DNA of 43,261 nt from Pseudonocardia sp. (GTDB lineage: Bacteria; Actinomycetota; Actinomycetes; Mycobacteriales; Pseudonocardiaceae). This document shows positions 6,652 through 15,146 of the stretch, in pieces (the first letter of the stretch is position 1; each line of letters opens with the position of its first letter). The notes beneath the pieces are model-generated. The model had not been told where the DNA came from, ran no database searches, and saw nothing but the letters and a program-made list of their open reading frames with translations. Location of the stretch: the NCBI GenBank assembly GCA_030451825.1, contig JAKDNL010000005.1:1-43261 (forward strand). Reading direction: 5' to 3'. Position numbers and translations under genes: made by a program.

Positions 6652-8105
6652 ATGCTGACGCGGCTCGAGGTCCGGGGGTTCAAGAACCTGCTGGACACCC
6701 ACGCCGAGTTCGGACCGTTCACCTGCATCGCGGGCGCAAACGGGATCGGCAAGTCCAATGTGTTCGACGCGATCGAGTTCCTGTCCTATCTGGCAACAGA
6801 CACCCTGGTAGAGGCTGCGCAACAGGTACGGGGTCCGAACGGTCCGCGCTCCGGATCCGAGCCACCCCGAGGTGACGTCCGGGACCTGTTCTGGGACGGG
6901 TATCGGGATCACGAACGCCGGATCGATCTCGCGGTCGAGATGCTCGTCCCACGAGAGGTCGAGGACGACCTCGGCGCACCCGCTCCCGCCACGACCACAT
7001 TCCTGCGTTACGAACTGACTCTCGGCTACGAGACCCCGGCCGGCGAAGGCCGGATAGGCCGCCCGAGCCTGCTCCGGGAGGAGCTCCGGCAGATCAATCG
7101 CGGGGAGGCGACACGACACCTCCGGTTCCCGCACAACGCCCAGACTTTCCGGACCTCGGTCGTCACCGGAACCCGCCGCGGCGGGCCGTACCTCGAAACA
7201 GCCTCCCGCGACGACGGAACAGTGATCAACGTTCACGGCGACGGCGGCAGCAGGGGACCTCCACAACCGCGGGCAGACGCGCGCAGCGGACGGACCGTCC
7301 TGTCGACCGTCACGACGAACGACTACCCGACGATTCTGGCCGCGAAGCGCGAGATGCAGAGCTGGCGGCGGTTCGCGTTGGAGCCCTCGGCTCTCCGCGC
7401 CCCGAACAGCCTCAGCGATCCCCGCTCCCTCGGGCACAACGGACAGCACCTCGCCGCCGCCCTCTATCGGATCGCCCATGACAACACGGTCGACGGAGAT
7501 CCGGACCCCGCGGCACTGATGTCGCGGGTGGCCGGACGCCTCTCTGACCTGACCGGTGTGCGGGTCGATGACCTGACCGTCGACCTGGATAAGGCACGAG
7601 AGGTGTTCACCCTGTTCCTGCTGGAGCGTGGTGGCCTAGTGGTGGCCTCCGGCTGCCGGCCCGCGCGCTCTCGGAGGGCACCCTTCGTTTCCTGGCTCTC
7701 TGCGTACTGCTCGAGGATCCGGAATTCACCGGATTGCTGTGCATGGAGGAGCCGGAGAACGGGATTCACCCGGCGAACCTGCCGGCCGTCATGGAGCTCA
7801 TCCGCGACCTCGCCGTCGATCCGTCGCACGCGCCCGGTGACACGAACCCCTTCCGGCAGATCATCATCAACACTCATGCGCCGGGCGTCGTGCAGCTCTG
7901 CGACCCGGCCGACCTGTTGCTCGCCGATCTCACACCACAACGCACTCCGGATGGGCAGGCCGTCCGGGCACTCGCGCTCCTACCCTTCCGCGACTCGTGG
8001 CGTGCGGACGACACATCGCGGTCCTTCGGGGAGGCCGACGTCATCGCCTATCTGGCGCCTCCGTCCGGGGCGCAGCTGCGTCTTCCACTGGACATCGCCG
8101 GATGA
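6652..8105 (+). pseudogene. AAA family ATPase (RecF/OLD-like, AAA_15/AAA_21 type), frameshifted near 7650
   Basis: MLTRLEVRGFKNLLDTHAEFGPFTCIAGANGIGKSNVFDAIEFLSYLA (Walker A) in frame 1; ...VVAS then RLPARALSEGTLRFLALCVLLEDPEFTGLLCMEEPENGIHPANLP...IIINTHAPGVV (signature, Walker B, D/H loop) in frame 3. One missing C in gcctcc(c)ggctg reconciles the frames. Confidence 0.8.
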
Positions 8106-8474
8106 CTGCCGGACCTCGGTCCGGCCTGTTCGTCGCCGAGGGCACCTCGGACCTGCCACTCGCCGAACTCGTCGAGTCCCTCTTCCTCGCGCACGGGGCG
8201 ACGGTGACCTCGACCAGGCCCGATTTCTCCCTGCTCCAACGAAGTGGAGCGGGTGGCCGATCCGAAGACGTTGCTCCACGACTCCATCCTGGAGACCGCG
8301 AACGTGACAGGCCGCAAGCGTCAGCAGTTGGCCGGACGGTTCTCCCAGAGCCGTCGCCAGCTGTTGGAACGCCTCGACTCTGATGGACCTGTCGCTTCTC
8401 TGGATAGCTGGCAGCACGTGGTCACCTCCGTGAAGGAGGTCGTGGCGGGCTGGGCCACGACCACCGCCCCCTGA
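8102..8474 (+). pseudogene. TOPRIM/DUF4276-like partner, internally deleted remnant
   Basis: ATGA overlap with the ATPase stop. N-terminus MTAGPRSGLFVAEGTSDLPLAELVESLFLAHGATVTSTRPDFSLLQ in one frame; C-terminus VERVADPKTLLHDSILETANVTGRKRQQLAGRFSQSRRQLLERLDSDGPVASLDSWQHVV in another; central segment absent. Confidence 0.55.
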
Positions 8475-8528
8475 CCCTGTGGCCCGCTCCGTTTGACAGC
8501 GGCAGCCGGGGTCTGTTGGCTGGGTACC

Positions 8529-8600
8529 GTGATCGCCCTCCCGCTGACGCGTCGTCGTCACGTCGATCACCAGCTCGTCACCAGCTGCGCCTGTCACTGA
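8529..8600 (+). CDS. putative 23-aa leader peptide upstream of sfnG-like gene
   Basis: GTG ATC GCC CTC CCG CTG ACG CGT CGT CGT CAC GTC GAT CAC CAG CTC GTC ACC AGC TGC GCC TGT CAC TGA = MIALPLTRRRHVDHQLVTSCACH*. Shares LTRRRHVD and terminal Cys with the second leader at 13650. Confidence 0.75.
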   Translation: MIALPLTRRRHVDHQLVTSCACH

Positions 8601-8620
8601 CCAGGCACGCAGGGCGCGAC

Positions 8621-8642
8621 GCGGACGCCCGAGGGCGTCCGC
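8621..8642 (+). terminator. strong hairpin (attenuator candidate) between leader peptide and sfnG-like gene
   Basis: gcggacgccc-ga-gggcgtccgc, a perfect 10-bp inverted repeat 20 nt after the leader stop codon; no U-tract. Confidence 0.5.
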
Positions 8643-8719
8643 CGCCCGGGCCGCCACCACCGTCCAGACGGTCGGAAACTCACCGGCCCGACCCAGATTC
8701 CGTTCCGAGGAGCACACCC

Positions 8720-9850
8720 GTGTCCGACATCACCGAACCGCTGAAGTTCGCCTACTGGGTGCCCAACGTCAGCGGCGGGCTGGTCACCAGCACGATCGAG
8801 CAGCGCACCGACTGGGGCTTCGACTACAACGTCAAGCTCGCCCGGACCGCTGAGAACAACGGCTTCGAGTACGCGCTGAGCCAGATCCGCTACATGGCCA
8901 GCTACGGCGCCGACCACCAGCACGAGGCCACCAGCTTCTCGCTCGCGCTCGGCATGGCCACCGAGCGCCTGAAGCTGATCGCCGCCGTGCACCCGGGCCT
9001 GTGGCAGCCGGCCGTGCTGGCCAAGTGGCTCGCCACCGCCGATCACCTGACGGGCGGCCGGATCGCGGTCAACGTCGTGTCCGGTTGGCTCAAGGACGAG
9101 TTCACCGCCATGGGCGAGCCGTGGCTCGAGCACGACGAGCGCTACCGCCGCACCGCGGAGTTCATCCGGGTGCTGCGCGAGATCTGGACCGCCGGTGAGG
9201 GCGGCGCCGAGTTCGCCGGCGACTTCTACCGGGTGCACGGCTTCGACCTCAAGCCCCGCCCGGTCGACGTCCCCGGCCGCCCACACCCGGAGATCTTCCA
9301 GGGCGGCAACTCCACCGCCGCCCGCCACAACGGCGGCACCGTCTCGGACTGGTACTTCTCCAACGGCAAGGACTACGACGGCTTCACCGAACAGGTCGAG
9401 GAGGTCCTCGGCCACGCGAAGACCGCCGACCGTCTGCAGCCGGTCCGGTTCGGCCTGAACGGCTTCATGATCGCCCGCGACTCCGAGTCCGAGGCCCGGG
9501 ACACCCTGCGCGAGATCATCGAGAAGGCCAACAAGCCGGCCGTCGAGGGCTTCCGGAGCGCCGTGCAGCAGGCCGGCAGCTCCACCGGCGACAAGCGCGG
9601 CATGTGGGCGGACTCGTCGTTCTCCGACCTCGTCCAGTACAACGACGGCTTCAAGACCCAGCTGATCGGCACCCCGGAGCAGATCGCCGACCGCGCGATC
9701 TCCTACAAGCGCCTCGGCGCGAACCTGCTGCTCCTGGGCTTCCTGCACTTCCAGGAGGAGGTCGAGTACTTCGGCGCCAAGGTCCTCCCGATCATCCGGG
9801 AGAAGGAGGCCGAGCTCGCCGAGCGTGAGCCGCAGCTCGCCCGGGGCTGA
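8720..9850 (+). CDS. sfnG: LLM-class flavin-dependent monooxygenase, dimethylsulfone monooxygenase SfnG-like
   Basis: MSDITEPLKFAYWVPNVSGGLVTSTIEQRTDWGFDYNVKLARTAENNGFEYALSQIRYMASYGADHQHEATSFSLALGMATERLKLIAAVHPGLWQPAVLAKWLATADHLTGGRIAVNVVSGW; GTG start at 8720 after GAGGAG. Confidence 0.85.
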   Translation: MSDITEPLKFAYWVPNVSGGLVTSTIEQRTDWGFDYNVKLARTAENNGFEYALSQIRYMASYGADHQHEATSFSLALGMATERLKLIAAVHPGLWQPAVLAKWLATADHLTGGRIAVNVVSGWLKDEFTAMGEPWLEHDERYRRTAEFIRVLREIWTAGEGGAEFAGDFYRVHGFDLKPRPVDVPGRPHPEIFQGGNSTAARHNGGTVSDWYFSNGKDYDGFTEQVEEVLGHAKTADRLQPVRFGLNGFMIARDSESEARDTLREIIEKANKPAVEGFRSAVQQAGSSTGDKRGMWADSSFSDLVQYNDGFKTQLIGTPEQIADRAISYKRLGANLLLLGFLHFQEEVEYFGAKVLPIIREKEAELAEREPQLARG

Positions 9851-9902: not shown

Positions 9903-10682
9903 TCAGGGCGCGCCGAGGGCGGGGTCGGCTTTGAGCCCCACCCCGGACAGTCCCAGCCGACGGGCCTCCGTCATCAGCATCGCCAGCGTCGTCGCTGCCT
10001 CGGCGTAGCCCGTCCCGTGCGGCGGGCGGACGTTGGACAGGCAGTTGCGCTCGGAGTCCCGCCGCCCGCGCCGCGCGTCGTAGGTGAAGTACAGACCGAG
10101 CGAGTCGGTGGAGCTCATCCCCGGCCGCTCCCCCACCAGGACGACCACGCTGCGCGCCCCGACGGCCGTCGCGATCTCGTCGCCCAGGGCCACCCGCGCC
10201 TGCGACGCCAGGACGACCGGCGCCACCCGCCACCCGTCGAGACGGGCCAGGATCTCGCGCAGCATCGGCACCGCATGCGTCTGCACCGCGAGCGGGGACA
10301 GCCCGTCGGCGACGACGAGCACGACGTCGTAGTCCCCCCGCTGCAGCGCCGCGTCGTCGGCGAGCAGCCGGCCGAGGTCGGGCCGGCGCAGGTACTCCGA
10401 GCGGCTCGGGGCGGCGCTGGCCGCGTGCGAGGCCGGCACCCCCAGCTCCCCGATCCGGCCGAGGAGGTCCTCGGCGTCGAGCGGCGAGTGCACGGCGTCG
10501 CGGGCGGCGGCATGCGCCGCCCGTAGCTCCAGCAGCCGCGCGGTGGGCAGCGCGTCGCCCGCCCGACCGAGCGCGACGCGGGCCCGGGTCGAGGCGCGCA
10601 ACGCCTCCAGCGGGTCGCCTCCGGTCCCGGCCGCCGCGTCCGCGTTCGGGCCGGTCGTGCGGGCGGGATCGGCCGCGCTCAC
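9903..10682 (-). CDS. eutC: ethanolamine ammonia-lyase small subunit
   Basis: DPLEALRASTRARVALGRAGDALPTARLLELRAAHAAARDAVH...VVLVVADGLSPLAVQTHAVPML...VVLVGERPGMSSTDSLGLYFTYDARRGRRDSERNCLSNVRPPHGTGYAEA; GTGA overlap with eutB. Confidence 0.95.
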   Translation of the reverse strand: MSAADPARTTGPNADAAAGTGGDPLEALRASTRARVALGRAGDALPTARLLELRAAHAAARDAVHSPLDAEDLLGRIGELGVPASHAASAAPSRSEYLRRPDLGRLLADDAALQRGDYDVVLVVADGLSPLAVQTHAVPMLREILARLDGWRVAPVVLASQARVALGDEIATAVGARSVVVLVGERPGMSSTDSLGLYFTYDARRGRRDSERNCLSNVRPPHGTGYAEAATTLAMLMTEARRLGLSGVGLKADPALGAP

Positions 10683-12061
10683 CGCACACCTGCCGTCAGC
10701 GCGCGCATCGTCGCCGAGTCCAGCGCCGGTTCCCGCACCCGGCCGTCGGTGCTCAACAGCTCCATCCGCTCCAGCCAGCCGGCGAACTCCGGCGCCGGGC
10801 GCAGGCCGAGTGCCGCCCGGGCGTAGAGCGCGTCGTGGAACGAGAGCGACTGGTAGTGCAGCATCACGTCGTCGCCGCCGGGCACGCAGATGACGAACGA
10901 GCAGCCGGCCACCCCGAGCAGCGTGAGCAGGGTGTCGGTGTCGTCGGCGTCGGCCTCGGCGTGGTTGGTGTAGCAGACGTCGACGCCCATCGGGACGCCG
11001 AGCAGCGAGCCGCAGAGGTTGTCCTCCAGCCCGGCCCGGGTGATCTGCTTGCCGTCGTAGAGGTACTCCGGTCCGATGAACCCGACGACGGTGTTGACCA
11101 GCAACGGGTCGAACGCCCGCGCGACGGCGTAGGCGCGCGCCTCGAGGGTCTGCTGGTCGATTCCGTGGTGGGCGTCGGAGGACAGCGCGCTGCCCTGCCC
11201 GGTCTCGAAGTACATGCAGTTCGTCCCGACGGTGCCGCGGCCCAGCGACAGCGCCGCCTCGTGCGCCTCGCGCAGGATGGCGAGGGTGACCCCGAAGCCC
11301 TCGTTCGCCGCCTGGGTCCCTGCGACGGACTGGAACACCAGGTCCACCGGCGCGCCGCGTTCCATGATCTCGATCGACGTCGTGACGTGCGCGAGCACGC
11401 AGCTCTGGGTGGGGATCTCGTAGCGGGTGCGGACCTCCTCGACCAGGTGCAGCAGGTCGGTCGTGCGGGCCGGTGAGTCGGTGGCCGGGTTGATCCCGAT
11501 GACGGCGTCGCCGCAGCCGAGCATCAGGCCGTCGACGATCGAGGCGGTGACACCCGCCGGGTCGTCGGTCGGGTGGTTGGGCTGCAGCCGGGTGGCCAGC
11601 GTGCCCGGCAGGCCCAGCGTGGAGCGGAACGCGGTGACGACCGGGGTCCGGCGGGCCACCGAGACCAGGTCCTGGATCCGCATCAGCTTCGACACCGCCG
11701 CCACCATCTCCGGGGTCAGGCCCGGCGCCAGCGCGGTGGTGTCGGTGTCCGGACGGAGCAGGTGGTCGCGCAGGCCGCCGACGGTCAGCGACGCGATCGG
11801 GGCGAACGCGGCAGCGTCGTGCGAGTCGACGATCAGGCGGGTGACCTCGTCGGTCTCATAAGGCACCACGAGCTCGTCGAGGAACGTGGTCAGCGGCAGG
11901 TCCGCGAGCACGGTCTGGGCGGTGACGCGTTCGCCCTCCGACCCGGCCGCGATGCCGGCCAGCACGTCCCCGGACCGCCCCGGGGTGGCCGCGGCGAGCA
12001 GGGCGGCCAGGTCCGCGAACTCGTGGGTGTGCCCGCCGAGGGATCCGCGACGGCGTGTCAT
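10679..12061 (-). CDS. eutB: ethanolamine ammonia-lyase large subunit
   Basis: DEVTRLIVDSHDAAAFAPIASLTVGGLRDHLL...LMLGCGDAVIGINPATDS...FETGQGSALSSDAHHGIDQQTLEARAYAVARAFDPLLVNTVVGFIGPEYLYDGKQI. Confidence 0.96.
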   Translation of the reverse strand: MTRRRGSLGGHTHEFADLAALLAAATPGRSGDVLAGIAAGSEGERVTAQTVLADLPLTTFLDELVVPYETDEVTRLIVDSHDAAAFAPIASLTVGGLRDHLLRPDTDTTALAPGLTPEMVAAVSKLMRIQDLVSVARRTPVVTAFRSTLGLPGTLATRLQPNHPTDDPAGVTASIVDGLMLGCGDAVIGINPATDSPARTTDLLHLVEEVRTRYEIPTQSCVLAHVTTSIEIMERGAPVDLVFQSVAGTQAANEGFGVTLAILREAHEAALSLGRGTVGTNCMYFETGQGSALSSDAHHGIDQQTLEARAYAVARAFDPLLVNTVVGFIGPEYLYDGKQITRAGLEDNLCGSLLGVPMGVDVCYTNHAEADADDTDTLLTLLGVAGCSFVICVPGGDDVMLHYQSLSFHDALYARAALGLRPAPEFAGWLERMELLSTDGRVREPALDSATMRALTAGVR

Positions 12062-13464
12062 CGCAGGTCCTCCTCCGCCGCGGACAGCGCGGTGAACTCC
12101 TCGTCCGGGGCCCGGGCGACGAGGTGGTGTCGTGAGTAGATCGCGAAGTAGGCCATGAACAGCGCGAACGCCCCGAGCGCGCAGAGCGCGGCCACGGTGT
12201 CCACCAGGAACGTGGCGATCACCGCTATCACGGCCACCACCAGCGCGAACCCGGTGGTCGCGACACCGCCGGGCGTCCGGTACGGGCGCGGCATGTCCGG
12301 CTCCCGGCTGCGCAGCACGATGTGGCTGACCATCATCAGCACGTACGACAGCGCCGCGCCGAACACGGCCATGTTCAGCAGCACGTCGCCCTGCCCGGTC
12401 AGCGACAGCCCGAAGCCGATCACGCCGGGCACGATCAGCGCCAGCGTCGGTGCCTTGCGTCGGTTGGTCACCGACAGCACCCGGGGCAGGTAGCCGGCCC
12501 GGGACAGCGCGAACGTCTGCCGGGAGTAGGCGTAGATGATCGAGAAGAAGCTGGCCACGAGCCCGGCCAGCCCGATGTAGTTCACGACGATCGCCAGCGG
12601 CGCGTCGCCCAGTGCCTCGACCAGGGGGTTACCCGACCCGGACAGGGCCTGCGCCCCCAGCGCGCCGGTGGCCAGCACCAGCACCCCGGCGCCGGTCACC
12701 AGCAACACCAGCATGGCGACCACGATCGCCTTCGGGACGTTGCGCTCGGGCTCGCGCGCCTCCTCCGCGGCGAGCGGGACGCCCTCGACGGCGAGGAAGA
12801 ACCAGATCGCGAACGGCACCGCGGACCAGATCCCGATCATCCCGAACGGCAGGAACGCCGAGGCACCCGCGGCGTCGGTGACCGGGATGTCGACCAGGTT
12901 CGCCGGGTCGAAGCGCGGGATCGCCCCGATCGCGAACACCACCAGCCCGACCATCGCGATGCCGGTCACCACGAACATCACCTTGAGCGCCTCGCCGGCC
13001 CCGGACAGGTGGATGCCGATGAACACCGCATACGCGGCGAGATAGACCCACCAGCCGTCGGTGATCCCGAACAGGCCCAGCGACTCCACGTAGGCGCCGA
13101 TGAACGTGGCGATCGCGGCCGGGGCGATCGCGTACTCGATCAGGATCGCGGTGCCGGTGGCGAACCCGCCCCACGGGCCCAGCGCGCGGCGGGCGAACGT
13201 GTAGCCGCCGCCGGCCGTCGGGAGAGCCGAGGAGAGCTCGGCCATCCCCAGCACCATCGCCAGATACATCGCGGCGATCACCACACCGGCGATCAGCAGG
13301 CCGCCGAAGCCGCCCTGCCCCAGGCCGAAGTTCCAGCCGGAGTAGTCGCCGGAGATCACGTAGCTGACGCCGAGCCCGGCCAGCAGCACCCAGCCGGCCG
13401 CGCCGGTCCTGAGCTGTCGCCGGGACAGGTAGTCGCTCGTGGCGTCGTCGGACGGGGTGGACAC
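12058..13464 (-). CDS. ethanolamine permease (APC family)
   Basis: YLSRRQLRTGAAGWVLLAGLGVSYVISGDYSGWNFGLGQGGFGGLLIAGVVIAAMYLAMVLGMAELSSALPTAGGGYTFARRALGPWGGFATGTAILIEYAIAP; ATGA overlap with eutB. Confidence 0.92.
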   Translation of the reverse strand: MSTPSDDATSDYLSRRQLRTGAAGWVLLAGLGVSYVISGDYSGWNFGLGQGGFGGLLIAGVVIAAMYLAMVLGMAELSSALPTAGGGYTFARRALGPWGGFATGTAILIEYAIAPAAIATFIGAYVESLGLFGITDGWWVYLAAYAVFIGIHLSGAGEALKVMFVVTGIAMVGLVVFAIGAIPRFDPANLVDIPVTDAAGASAFLPFGMIGIWSAVPFAIWFFLAVEGVPLAAEEAREPERNVPKAIVVAMLVLLVTGAGVLVLATGALGAQALSGSGNPLVEALGDAPLAIVVNYIGLAGLVASFFSIIYAYSRQTFALSRAGYLPRVLSVTNRRKAPTLALIVPGVIGFGLSLTGQGDVLLNMAVFGAALSYVLMMVSHIVLRSREPDMPRPYRTPGGVATTGFALVVAVIAVIATFLVDTVAALCALGAFALFMAYFAIYSRHHLVARAPDEEFTALSAAEEDLR

Positions 13465-13649
13465 GGTGCACCTCCGAGGGGCCTGCCGGGCGCGGGACGC
13501 CGGCGGAGACGTCAGTGTGCCCCCGTTCGGGGTCGGTGATGTTGCTCCATGATGTCGAACTTCGCCCGACCTGACCGGACAACTCGGCCCGCCGTCCCAC
13601 CGGCCGACCCCGGGTTGACTTATCCCGGATCGATCCGAAAACTGAGGTC

Positions 13650-13721
13650 GTGTTGTTCTGCGTGCTCACCCGTCGACGTCATGTCGACCTTTCCCGCGTG
13701 AACTCGTCCAGCTGTCGCTGA
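13650..13721 (+). CDS. putative 23-aa leader peptide upstream of sfnB-like gene
   Basis: GTG TTG TTC TGC GTG CTC ACC CGT CGA CGT CAT GTC GAC CTT TCC CGC GTG AAC TCG TCC AGC TGT CGC TGA = MLFCVLTRRRHVDLSRVNSSSCR*; internal GTG at 13662 gives MLTRRRHVDLSRVNSSSCR. Confidence 0.8.
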   Translation: MLFCVLTRRRHVDLSRVNSSSCR

Positions 13722-13913: not shown

Positions 13914-15146
13914 GTGACCACGACCGACAACCGCCCTGCCACCACCCCCGGCTGGGCCGCGCAGCCGGCTCCGCGCACCGAGGCCGAGTGGCTGGCCCGG
14001 GCCCGCCAGGTGCGCGAGGTGCTCGCCGCCGACGCGGCGGCCCGGGACCGGGCCGCCGCCACGCCCTACGACGAGGTCGCGCTGCTCAAGTCCTCCGGCC
14101 TGGTCACCCTGCTCGGCCCGGCCGAGCACGGCGGAGCGGGCCAGGAGTGGCCCACCGCCTACCGCGTCGTACGGGAGGTCGCCGCCGGCGACGGCTCGAT
14201 CGGGCAGCTGCTCGGCTACCACTACCTGTGGTTCTGGGCCGCCCGCCTGGTCGGCACGCCTGCGCAGATCGAGGCCGTCGAGGCGGATGCGACCCGCAAC
14301 CAGTGGTTCTTCGGCGGCGCGGTGAACCCGCGCGACGCCGACGTCACCATCCGCGACACCGGAGACGCGATCGTCTACAACGGTGCCAAGACGTTCTCCA
14401 CCGGAAGCAAGGTCTCCGACGTGACCGTGCTCGAGGGCGTCCTCGAGGGCACCGAGACGCACATCTTCGCGATCGTGCCGAGTGCCCAGGAGGGCATCAC
14501 GTTCGGAGACGACTGGGACAACATCGGCCAGCGGCTCACCGAGAGCGGCGGCGTCACGATCACCGACGTCAGCGTGCCGTGGGAGGCGGCGGCCGGGTTC
14601 GTGGACAAGACGTTCCAGCCGCGGGTCTACAACACGCTCAACGTGCCGACGATCCAGCTCGTGTTCGTCAGCTTCTACCTGGGCATCGCCCGCGGAGCTC
14701 TGGAGACCGCGGCCGAGTACACCCGCACCAGGACCCGTCCGTGGCTGCACGGCGGGCAGGAACGCGCCGTCGACGAGCCCTATCAGCTCGACCTCTACGG
14801 CGACTACCAGTCCAAGCTCTGGGCCGTCGAGGCGCTGGCCGATCAGGTCGCGCAGGAGGCACTGGCGATCCACCACGACGCCTGGAACGTGACCGCGCAG
14901 CAGCGTGGCGAGCACGAGGTGCGGGTGGCCGCGGTGAAGGCCCGCGCCACCGAGGTCGCCCTGGAGATCACCAGCGGGATCTTCGAGGGGCTCGGCGCCC
15001 GGGCCACCCAGGCCGCCCTCGGGTTCGACCGCTTCTGGCGCAACGTGCGCACGCACACGCTGCACGACCCGGTTGCCTACAAGCGTCGGGAGGTCGGGGC
15101 GTTCCTGCTCCGCGACGAGCTGCCCGAGCCCACCTGGTACTCCTGA
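13914..15146 (+). CDS. sfnB: acyl-CoA dehydrogenase-fold sulfur-acquisition oxidoreductase, SfnB/DszC family
   Basis: TEAEWLARARQVREVLAADAAARDRAAATPYDEVALLKSSGLVTLLGPAEHGGAGQEWPTAYRVVREVAAGDGSIGQLLGYHYLWFWAARLVGTPAQIE...WFFGGAVNPRD; typical SfnB/DszC family pattern. Confidence 0.82.
   Translation: MTTTDNRPATTPGWAAQPAPRTEAEWLARARQVREVLAADAAARDRAAATPYDEVALLKSSGLVTLLGPAEHGGAGQEWPTAYRVVREVAAGDGSIGQLLGYHYLWFWAARLVGTPAQIEAVEADATRNQWFFGGAVNPRDADVTIRDTGDAIVYNGAKTFSTGSKVSDVTVLEGVLEGTETHIFAIVPSAQEGITFGDDWDNIGQRLTESGGVTITDVSVPWEAAAGFVDKTFQPRVYNTLNVPTIQLVFVSFYLGIARGALETAAEYTRTRTRPWLHGGQERAVDEPYQLDLYGDYQSKLWAVEALADQVAQEALAIHHDAWNVTAQQRGEHEVRVAAVKARATEVALEITSGIFEGLGARATQAALGFDRFWRNVRTHTLHDPVAYKRREVGAFLLRDELPEPTWYS

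Follow-up and report, generated by a model that had tools for sequence, protein, structure and literature searches.

The sfnG gene of Pseudonocardia sp. is preceded by a short leader ORF whose frame, core and C-terminal Cys recur in 14 other species and in front of many other sulfur genes, and by this comparison the peptide stands far beyond chance. We propose that it is a leaderless upstream ORF (uORF), which very probably controls sfnG by ribosome-mediated attenuation responding to cysteinyl-tRNA. The mechanism class is known already, and the leaders of sfnG and of an sfnB-like gene nearby are new members of it. The sfnG leader thereby adds dimethylsulfone and organosulfur scavenging to the ribosome-sensed cysteine regulon of Actinobacteria. 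The window analyzed here is the whole stretch of 43,261 nucleotides at the start of contig JAKDNL010000005.1, and the features of both leader regions are listed in Table 1.

Leader ORF in front of sfnG

Direct reading of the sequence confirmed the GTG-initiated mini-ORF described in the initial annotation, with its LTRRRHVD core and a C-terminus of Cys-Ala-Cys-His. The stop codon is a TGA at 8598-8600, and the distance from it to the sfnG start is 119 nt. There is no polycysteine tract, the two Cys codons being separated by an Ala codon, and the short ORF carries the core pattern [L]-x-x-R-R-H-V-D together with a Cys at D+9, the ninth residue after the Asp of the core. The downstream gene is a true sfnG, its TIGR04021 score lying well above the cut-off of 383 bits. 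An Rfam search of the window returned no family. A 245-aa ORF on the minus strand (7980-8717) overlaps the leader, and spurious antisense ORFs over such leaders have also been remarked for mycobacteria (PMC4633059).

Table 1. Features of the two leader regions, given as positions in the window.
Feature	Position	Strand	Remarks
TTGACA, predicted -35 box of sfnG leader	8493..8498	+	36 nt 5' of GTG 8529; direct reading and family geometry
TTGGCT, weak -10-like hexamer	8516..8521	+	17-nt spacer; predicted from position
Leader peptide ORF	8529..8600	+	GTG start, 23 aa VIALPLTRRRHVDHQLVTSCACH, predicted leaderless
Core LTRRRHVD	8544..8567	+	amino-acid-level conservation, codon choice free
Cys codon UGC (D+7)	8586..8588	+	position optional in leader family
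Anchor Cys codon UGU (D+9)	8592..8594	+	predicted stall site
Spacer, leader stop to sfnG ribosome-binding site	8601..8706	+	C>G biased
Perfect 10-bp inverted repeat	8621..8642	+	2-nt gap; as RNA a 9-bp stem with CGAG loop; no U-tract
GAGGAG, Shine-Dalgarno (SD) of sfnG	8707..8712	+	
sfnG, FMNH2-dependent dimethylsulfone monooxygenase	8720..9850	+	TIGR04021 592 bits
TTGACT, predicted -35 box of second leader	13615..13620	+	35 nt 5' of its start
Second leader peptide VLFCVLTRRRHVDLSRVNSSSCR	13650..13721	+	more typical of the same family than sfnG leader
SfnB/DszC-like acyl-CoA-dehydrogenase-family gene behind second leader	13914..15146	+	NF043015 298 bits, TIGR04022 256 bits; below both equivalog cut-offs

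Family kinship and genomic context

Judged by profile comparison, the sfnG leader is a divergent relative of the NCBIfam families NF042934 and NF042936, without formal membership in either. It matched NF042936 (Ms4527A family Cys-rich leader peptide, named after the Ms4527A leader) with an E value of 6.5e-4 and 19.2 bits against a curated cut-off of 45, and NF042934 (cis_reg_atten, "putative leader peptide") with 11.1 bits against a curated cut-off of 27. Because these scores are below the cut-offs, the leader is unannotated; current annotation models miss divergent leaders of this kind. The initial annotation had pointed to peptides annotated merely as putative leaders before actinobacterial sulfur genes, and correctly so, since NF042934 is that family. 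The divergence of the sfnG leader consists of a His at D+1 and the lack of an Arg at D+3, a sub-type common to five Pseudonocardia sfnG leaders.

At the same threshold (E 0.01), NF042934 leaders were found in 40 of 41 relatives, with up to 23 per genome, and in 116 of 148 genomes of the class, compared with 0 of 14 control genomes. The genes behind 102 leaders were mostly sulfur genes: sulfite reductase (22), DUF4395 (18), rhodanese (14), SsuD/SfnG-type monooxygenases (9), transporter permeases (8), APS kinase (3), SfnB (3), TauD (2) and CysE (1). In the genome under study, leaders also stand before a sulfite/nitrite-reductase-family gene, an OAH/OAS sulfhydrylase gene, DUF4395 with a sulfurtransferase, SsuD-like and NtaA/DmoA-like monooxygenase genes and an MHS-type symporter gene. 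Divergently oriented pairs of leaders lie back to back in one intergenic region in three places (G008:C72:63060/63365, G036:C1:6931167/6931391 and G060:C251:3248/3429), where each leader presumably drives its own sulfur operon.

The second leader of the window, which was no part of the finding in the initial annotation, lies 192 nt 5' of the SfnB/DszC-like gene, and this leader and others of the same genome match NF042934 better than the sfnG leader does. Genes for EutC, EutB and an ethanolamine permease (9903-13464, minus strand) are located between sfnG and the sfnB-like gene and, from the gene order, look like an insertion into an organosulfur cluster. At three other loci (L034, L037 and L039) these two sulfur genes are direct neighbors, and a separate leader precedes each of them.

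Conservation upstream of sfnG

The comparison set comprised 80 sfnG loci from other species; ranked by SfnG identity, P. endophytica comes closest among named relatives. The first scan was a regular expression that required no more than the Arg-rich core within a short ORF, and a second scan added locus L036. By the two scans the leader frame was found 5' of sfnG in 14 of the 80 loci, namely in 10 of 11 Pseudonocardia, both Nocardia, YIM PH 21723 (another member of the Pseudonocardiaceae) and one Streptomyces. All 14 leaders have Cys as the ninth residue after the Asp, and its codon is UGU. Lack of a conserved LTRRRHVD..C frame, which the initial annotation had named as an argument against the leader, was not observed: the frame is retained in front of sfnG, while the core codons change freely at synonymous positions. 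When the sfnG orthologues were aligned, the leader was conserved and the spacer was not, and two of the aligned orthologues have merely 31-37 nt from the leader stop to the gene. In 65 of the 80 loci, mostly from Mycolicibacterium, Gordonia and Rhodococcus, no such leader was present within 2 kb, and therefore regulation of sfnG does not generally depend on the leader.

Predicted promoter and leaderless start

A strict scan called no consensus sigma-70 promoter at the sfnG leader, where the -10 hexamer is poor. In the wider family, TTGAC was found 5' of 48 of 215 leaders, whereas 7 of 215 control stretches had it. Measured to the start codon, its spacing peaks sharply at 36 nt, with 29 leaders at 35-38 nt, and the TTGACA and GTG of the sfnG leader match this spacing exactly. 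The base at position -1 of the leaders was C in 93%, and SD-like sequence was seen in just 6 of 29. On sequence grounds this promoter geometry is that of leaderless mRNAs, and the transcript of the sfnG leader is predicted to start at 8529, leaderless and without an SD. A transcription start 3' of 8600, which the initial annotation had named as an argument against the leader, is not what this prediction gives.

Fixed Cys position and UGU codon

Among 249 unique leaders, 243 have Cys at D+9 and 5 have a stop there; the codon is UGU in 237, UGC in 6, stop in 5 and another in 1. Elsewhere in these peptides, Cys is encoded by UGC in 201 cases and by UGU in 34 (Fisher p = 9e-89 vs D+9, a nominal value since the rows are related, although many families are spanned and the within-peptide control is equally related). 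The D+9 Cys was UGU in 129 of 131 leaders, from genomes in which UGU accounts for 9-15% of Cys codons, and D+9 was UGU in all 84 members of the class-wide leader set. In order to exclude selection by the profile, 118 genomes were searched with a core-only model that extends no further than D+4; the 65 unique short ORFs obtained had UGU at D+9 in 60, UGC in 4 and a stop in 1. The base 3' of the D+9 UGU was C in 202, T in 30, A in 4 and G in 1. The majority of leaders in the wider family contain one to three Cys codons, and a polycysteine tract is no general feature there.

The core behaves differently from the anchor codon. The Arg at D-4 is invariant in 131 leaders yet spelled with all six codons, and the codons for the core L, T, R, H and V vary about as much as those of ordinary genes do, which indicates that the core is conserved as a peptide and not as codons. 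Pairing of UGUC with a downstream GACA was not enriched (42 seen vs 38.5 expected), and RNAalifold found no conserved RNA fold of the leader in 100 leaders. The modelled fold of an individual leader is a little more stable than that of its synonymous shuffles (-23.8 vs -22.3 kcal/mol), a difference that possibly reflects mere genome composition.

In eight full-core leaders the D+9 position itself is a stop codon, either UGA or UAG, and these leaders precede FAD-NAD(P)-binding or LLM monooxygenase genes (G000:C367:1573-1626, which is L011:1489-1550, and L328, L329, L340, L343, L161, L176 and L233). One D+9-stop leader of the genome under study is without any Cys and precedes a gene for an FAD-NAD(P)-binding protein.

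A single tRNA-Cys (GCA) decodes both UGC and UGU, the latter by wobble. Decoding is known from suppression studies to be weakened when a pyrimidine follows the codon. UGU followed by a pyrimidine would thus be the slowest spelling of Cys, placed only where a stall is required. In the E. coli arrest peptides TnaC and SpeFL, the spacing between a conserved core and the stall codon is constant. The leader family likewise has a constant spacing from its core to the presumed stall codon, has stop-codon variants too, and bears no sequence relation to TnaC and SpeFL. The fixed D+9 register, including the stop variants, suggests that, as in arrest peptides, it is important where the A site stands with respect to the core. 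We tentatively put forward, as a reading with a fair amount of doubt attached, that the leader family is more than a simple counter of hungry codons, namely a register-locked device in which the LTxRRHVD core would serve as a nascent-chain pausing element in the exit tunnel and a slow A-site event would take place exactly nine codons past the Asp (UGU with a non-G base in the cysteine sensors, a stop codon in the variants), the codon being chosen for slow decoding beyond Cys identity. The fixed Cys position, UGU at that position alone and the stop variants turn the question of why the core is conserved into an experimentally simple one. Literature searched on the RRHVD motif, with subscription papers mostly outside its reach, contained no description of the UGU bias or the fixed register, and as far as could be searched both are new.

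Proposed mechanism and output step

Starting from what is established for the sfnG leader (the existence and conservation of the peptide, the sulfur-gene context, the predicted leaderless geometry, the fixed UGU position and the lack of a terminator), we infer stalling and an output step, and from its relatives a response of the locus to cysteine. Transcription would begin at or beside GTG 8529, and a ribosome would translate the 23 codons. With plentiful cysteine it would pass the UGU at 8592 and terminate at 8600, and the downstream RNA would be off. When cysteine, and hence sulfur, is short, the ribosome would stall with the UGU in its A site and the LTRRRHVD core in its exit tunnel, and would then lie over the last part of the leader. 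The stalled ribosome would keep the downstream RNA on, so that SfnG would be made and organosulfur scavenged.

The initial annotation had already read the peptide as part of a cysteine attenuator, and this reading is supported by the conserved frame and the predicted transcription start. The perfect 10-bp hairpin that it assigned to 8621-8642 fared less well. The inverted repeat is real, but the RNA can form only 9 bp, and the repeat has no U-tract. Because the aligned orthologues do not have it, the repeat was rejected as a conserved element; it is probably dispensable and unlikely to be "the" attenuator hairpin. The fold of region 8601-8719 is only marginally more stable than that of shuffles (z = -1.83; 8 of 200 shuffles equally good). 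No terminator-like site, and no intrinsic terminator with a GC stem and a U-tract, was found in the sfnG leader region; across 127 leader spacers T-runs are rare and U-tract terminators absent. A classical transcription attenuator of the trp type was rejected for want of an intrinsic terminator, and an intrinsic terminator is unlikely to be the sfnG output.

Two outputs of the same sensor have to be weighed, of which masking of a Rho site is somewhat likelier for sfnG than unmasking of the ribosome-binding site. In the former, to which we give about an even chance, Rho-dependent termination would take place in the spacer: once a ribosome had finished the leader, a C-rich rut site would lie exposed, whereas stalling would keep it masked. 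Exposure and masking of a rut site by a leader ribosome have a precedent in the E. coli tna operon. C exceeds G in all 127 spacers after leaders, with a median skew of 0.24 vs 0.02 in 118 control 5' regions (p = 2e-23), and of 0.21-0.25 vs 0-0.05 when SD-bearing genes serve as the control (p about 1e-7 to 1e-11). These C-rich, G-poor spacers, free of U-tract terminators, favor Rho-dependent attenuation, and by the sequence criterion the sfnG spacer is rut-like as well. However, C-rich, G-poor sequence is also plainly unstructured, and the skew of the sfnG spacer (0.15) is among the weaker ones. Rho was suggested for mycobacterial cys leaders by Seliverstov 2005 (PMC1262725), where the suggestion was called weak.

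In the latter case, which is possible though we lean away from it, the output would be translational only. The end of the leader would sequester the downstream ribosome-binding site by base pairing, and stalling of the ribosome would free it, as proposed for M. smegmatis. Such an output is established for mycobacterial polycysteine uORFs (Canestrari 2020, as cited in PMC13236596, where it is termed translation attenuation). For leaders within 70 nt of the gene, a ribosome at the Cys codon lifted the modelled SD accessibility from 0.22 to 0.35, compared with 0.23 for an upstream block, and leader 3' ends pair better with their own ribosome-binding sites than with those of others, with modest z-values. 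Several DUF4395 leaders end in TCCTGA, opposite a TCAGGAG ribosome-binding site. In contrast, far leaders including that of sfnG (119 nt) showed no modelled effect, with an average of 0.31 vs 0.32. For sfnG itself the models were inconsistent, as accessibility with a ribosome at the Cys codon went from 0.31 to 0.31, or from 0.22 to 0.38 with slightly different ends. The Rho and ribosome-binding-site outputs may both operate, in different family members.

TCC TGA ends, which are the exact complement of TCAGGA in the downstream ribosome-binding site, were seen before DUF4395 or sulfurtransferase genes in L184, L185, L186, L189, L194, L197, L198, L201 and L205. These leaders appear to be ready-made for sequestration of the ribosome-binding site.

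Action of the peptide in trans, as a small functional protein or the precursor of a modified peptide, is very improbable. The core is indeed conserved at the amino-acid level, but a genome has many divergent copies, all of which stand in cis to a sulfur gene that follows them, the Cys codon itself is conserved beyond the residue, and no modification enzyme adjoins the leader among the window genes read. That the leader is a functionless chance ORF has next to no likelihood, since its frame and core are shared between species, as are the position and codon of the Cys and the distance to the promoter, even though short ORFs abound in GC-rich DNA and the profile scores are below curated cut-offs.

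Comparison with known cysteine leaders

The mechanism class of the proposed cysteine-responsive attenuation was predicted in 2005 for Mycobacterium, P. acnes and B. longum (Seliverstov, PMC1262725). Those cys leaders resemble the sfnG leader in having Cys codons near the stop, no terminator hairpin and a pyrimidine-rich spacer, but they contain runs of Cys codons and precede cys or cbs operons. Leaderless mycobacterial Cys uORFs were seen by ribosome profiling (Shell 2015, PMC4633059), and an experimental test of such uORFs by Canestrari 2020 is cited in PMC9094748 and PMC13236596. The Ms4527A uORFs of mycobacteria, upstream of nirA/Msmeg_4527, are like the sfnG leader leaderless short ORFs with a C-terminal Cys, located before sulfur genes in several copies per genome. 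The sfnG leader differs from Ms4527A by one invariant UGU and one UGC instead of a polycysteine run, by the D+1 and D+3 residues described above, by a longer spacer and by its target, sfnG. With NF042934 it shares the LTxRRHVD..C layout and spacing. The alphaproteobacterial cysS uORF motif (uORFC-8-2, PMC8632094) is also a Cys-codon uORF attenuator, whereas its Cys codons are in tandem with UGC dominant, and it has an intrinsic terminator with a U run.
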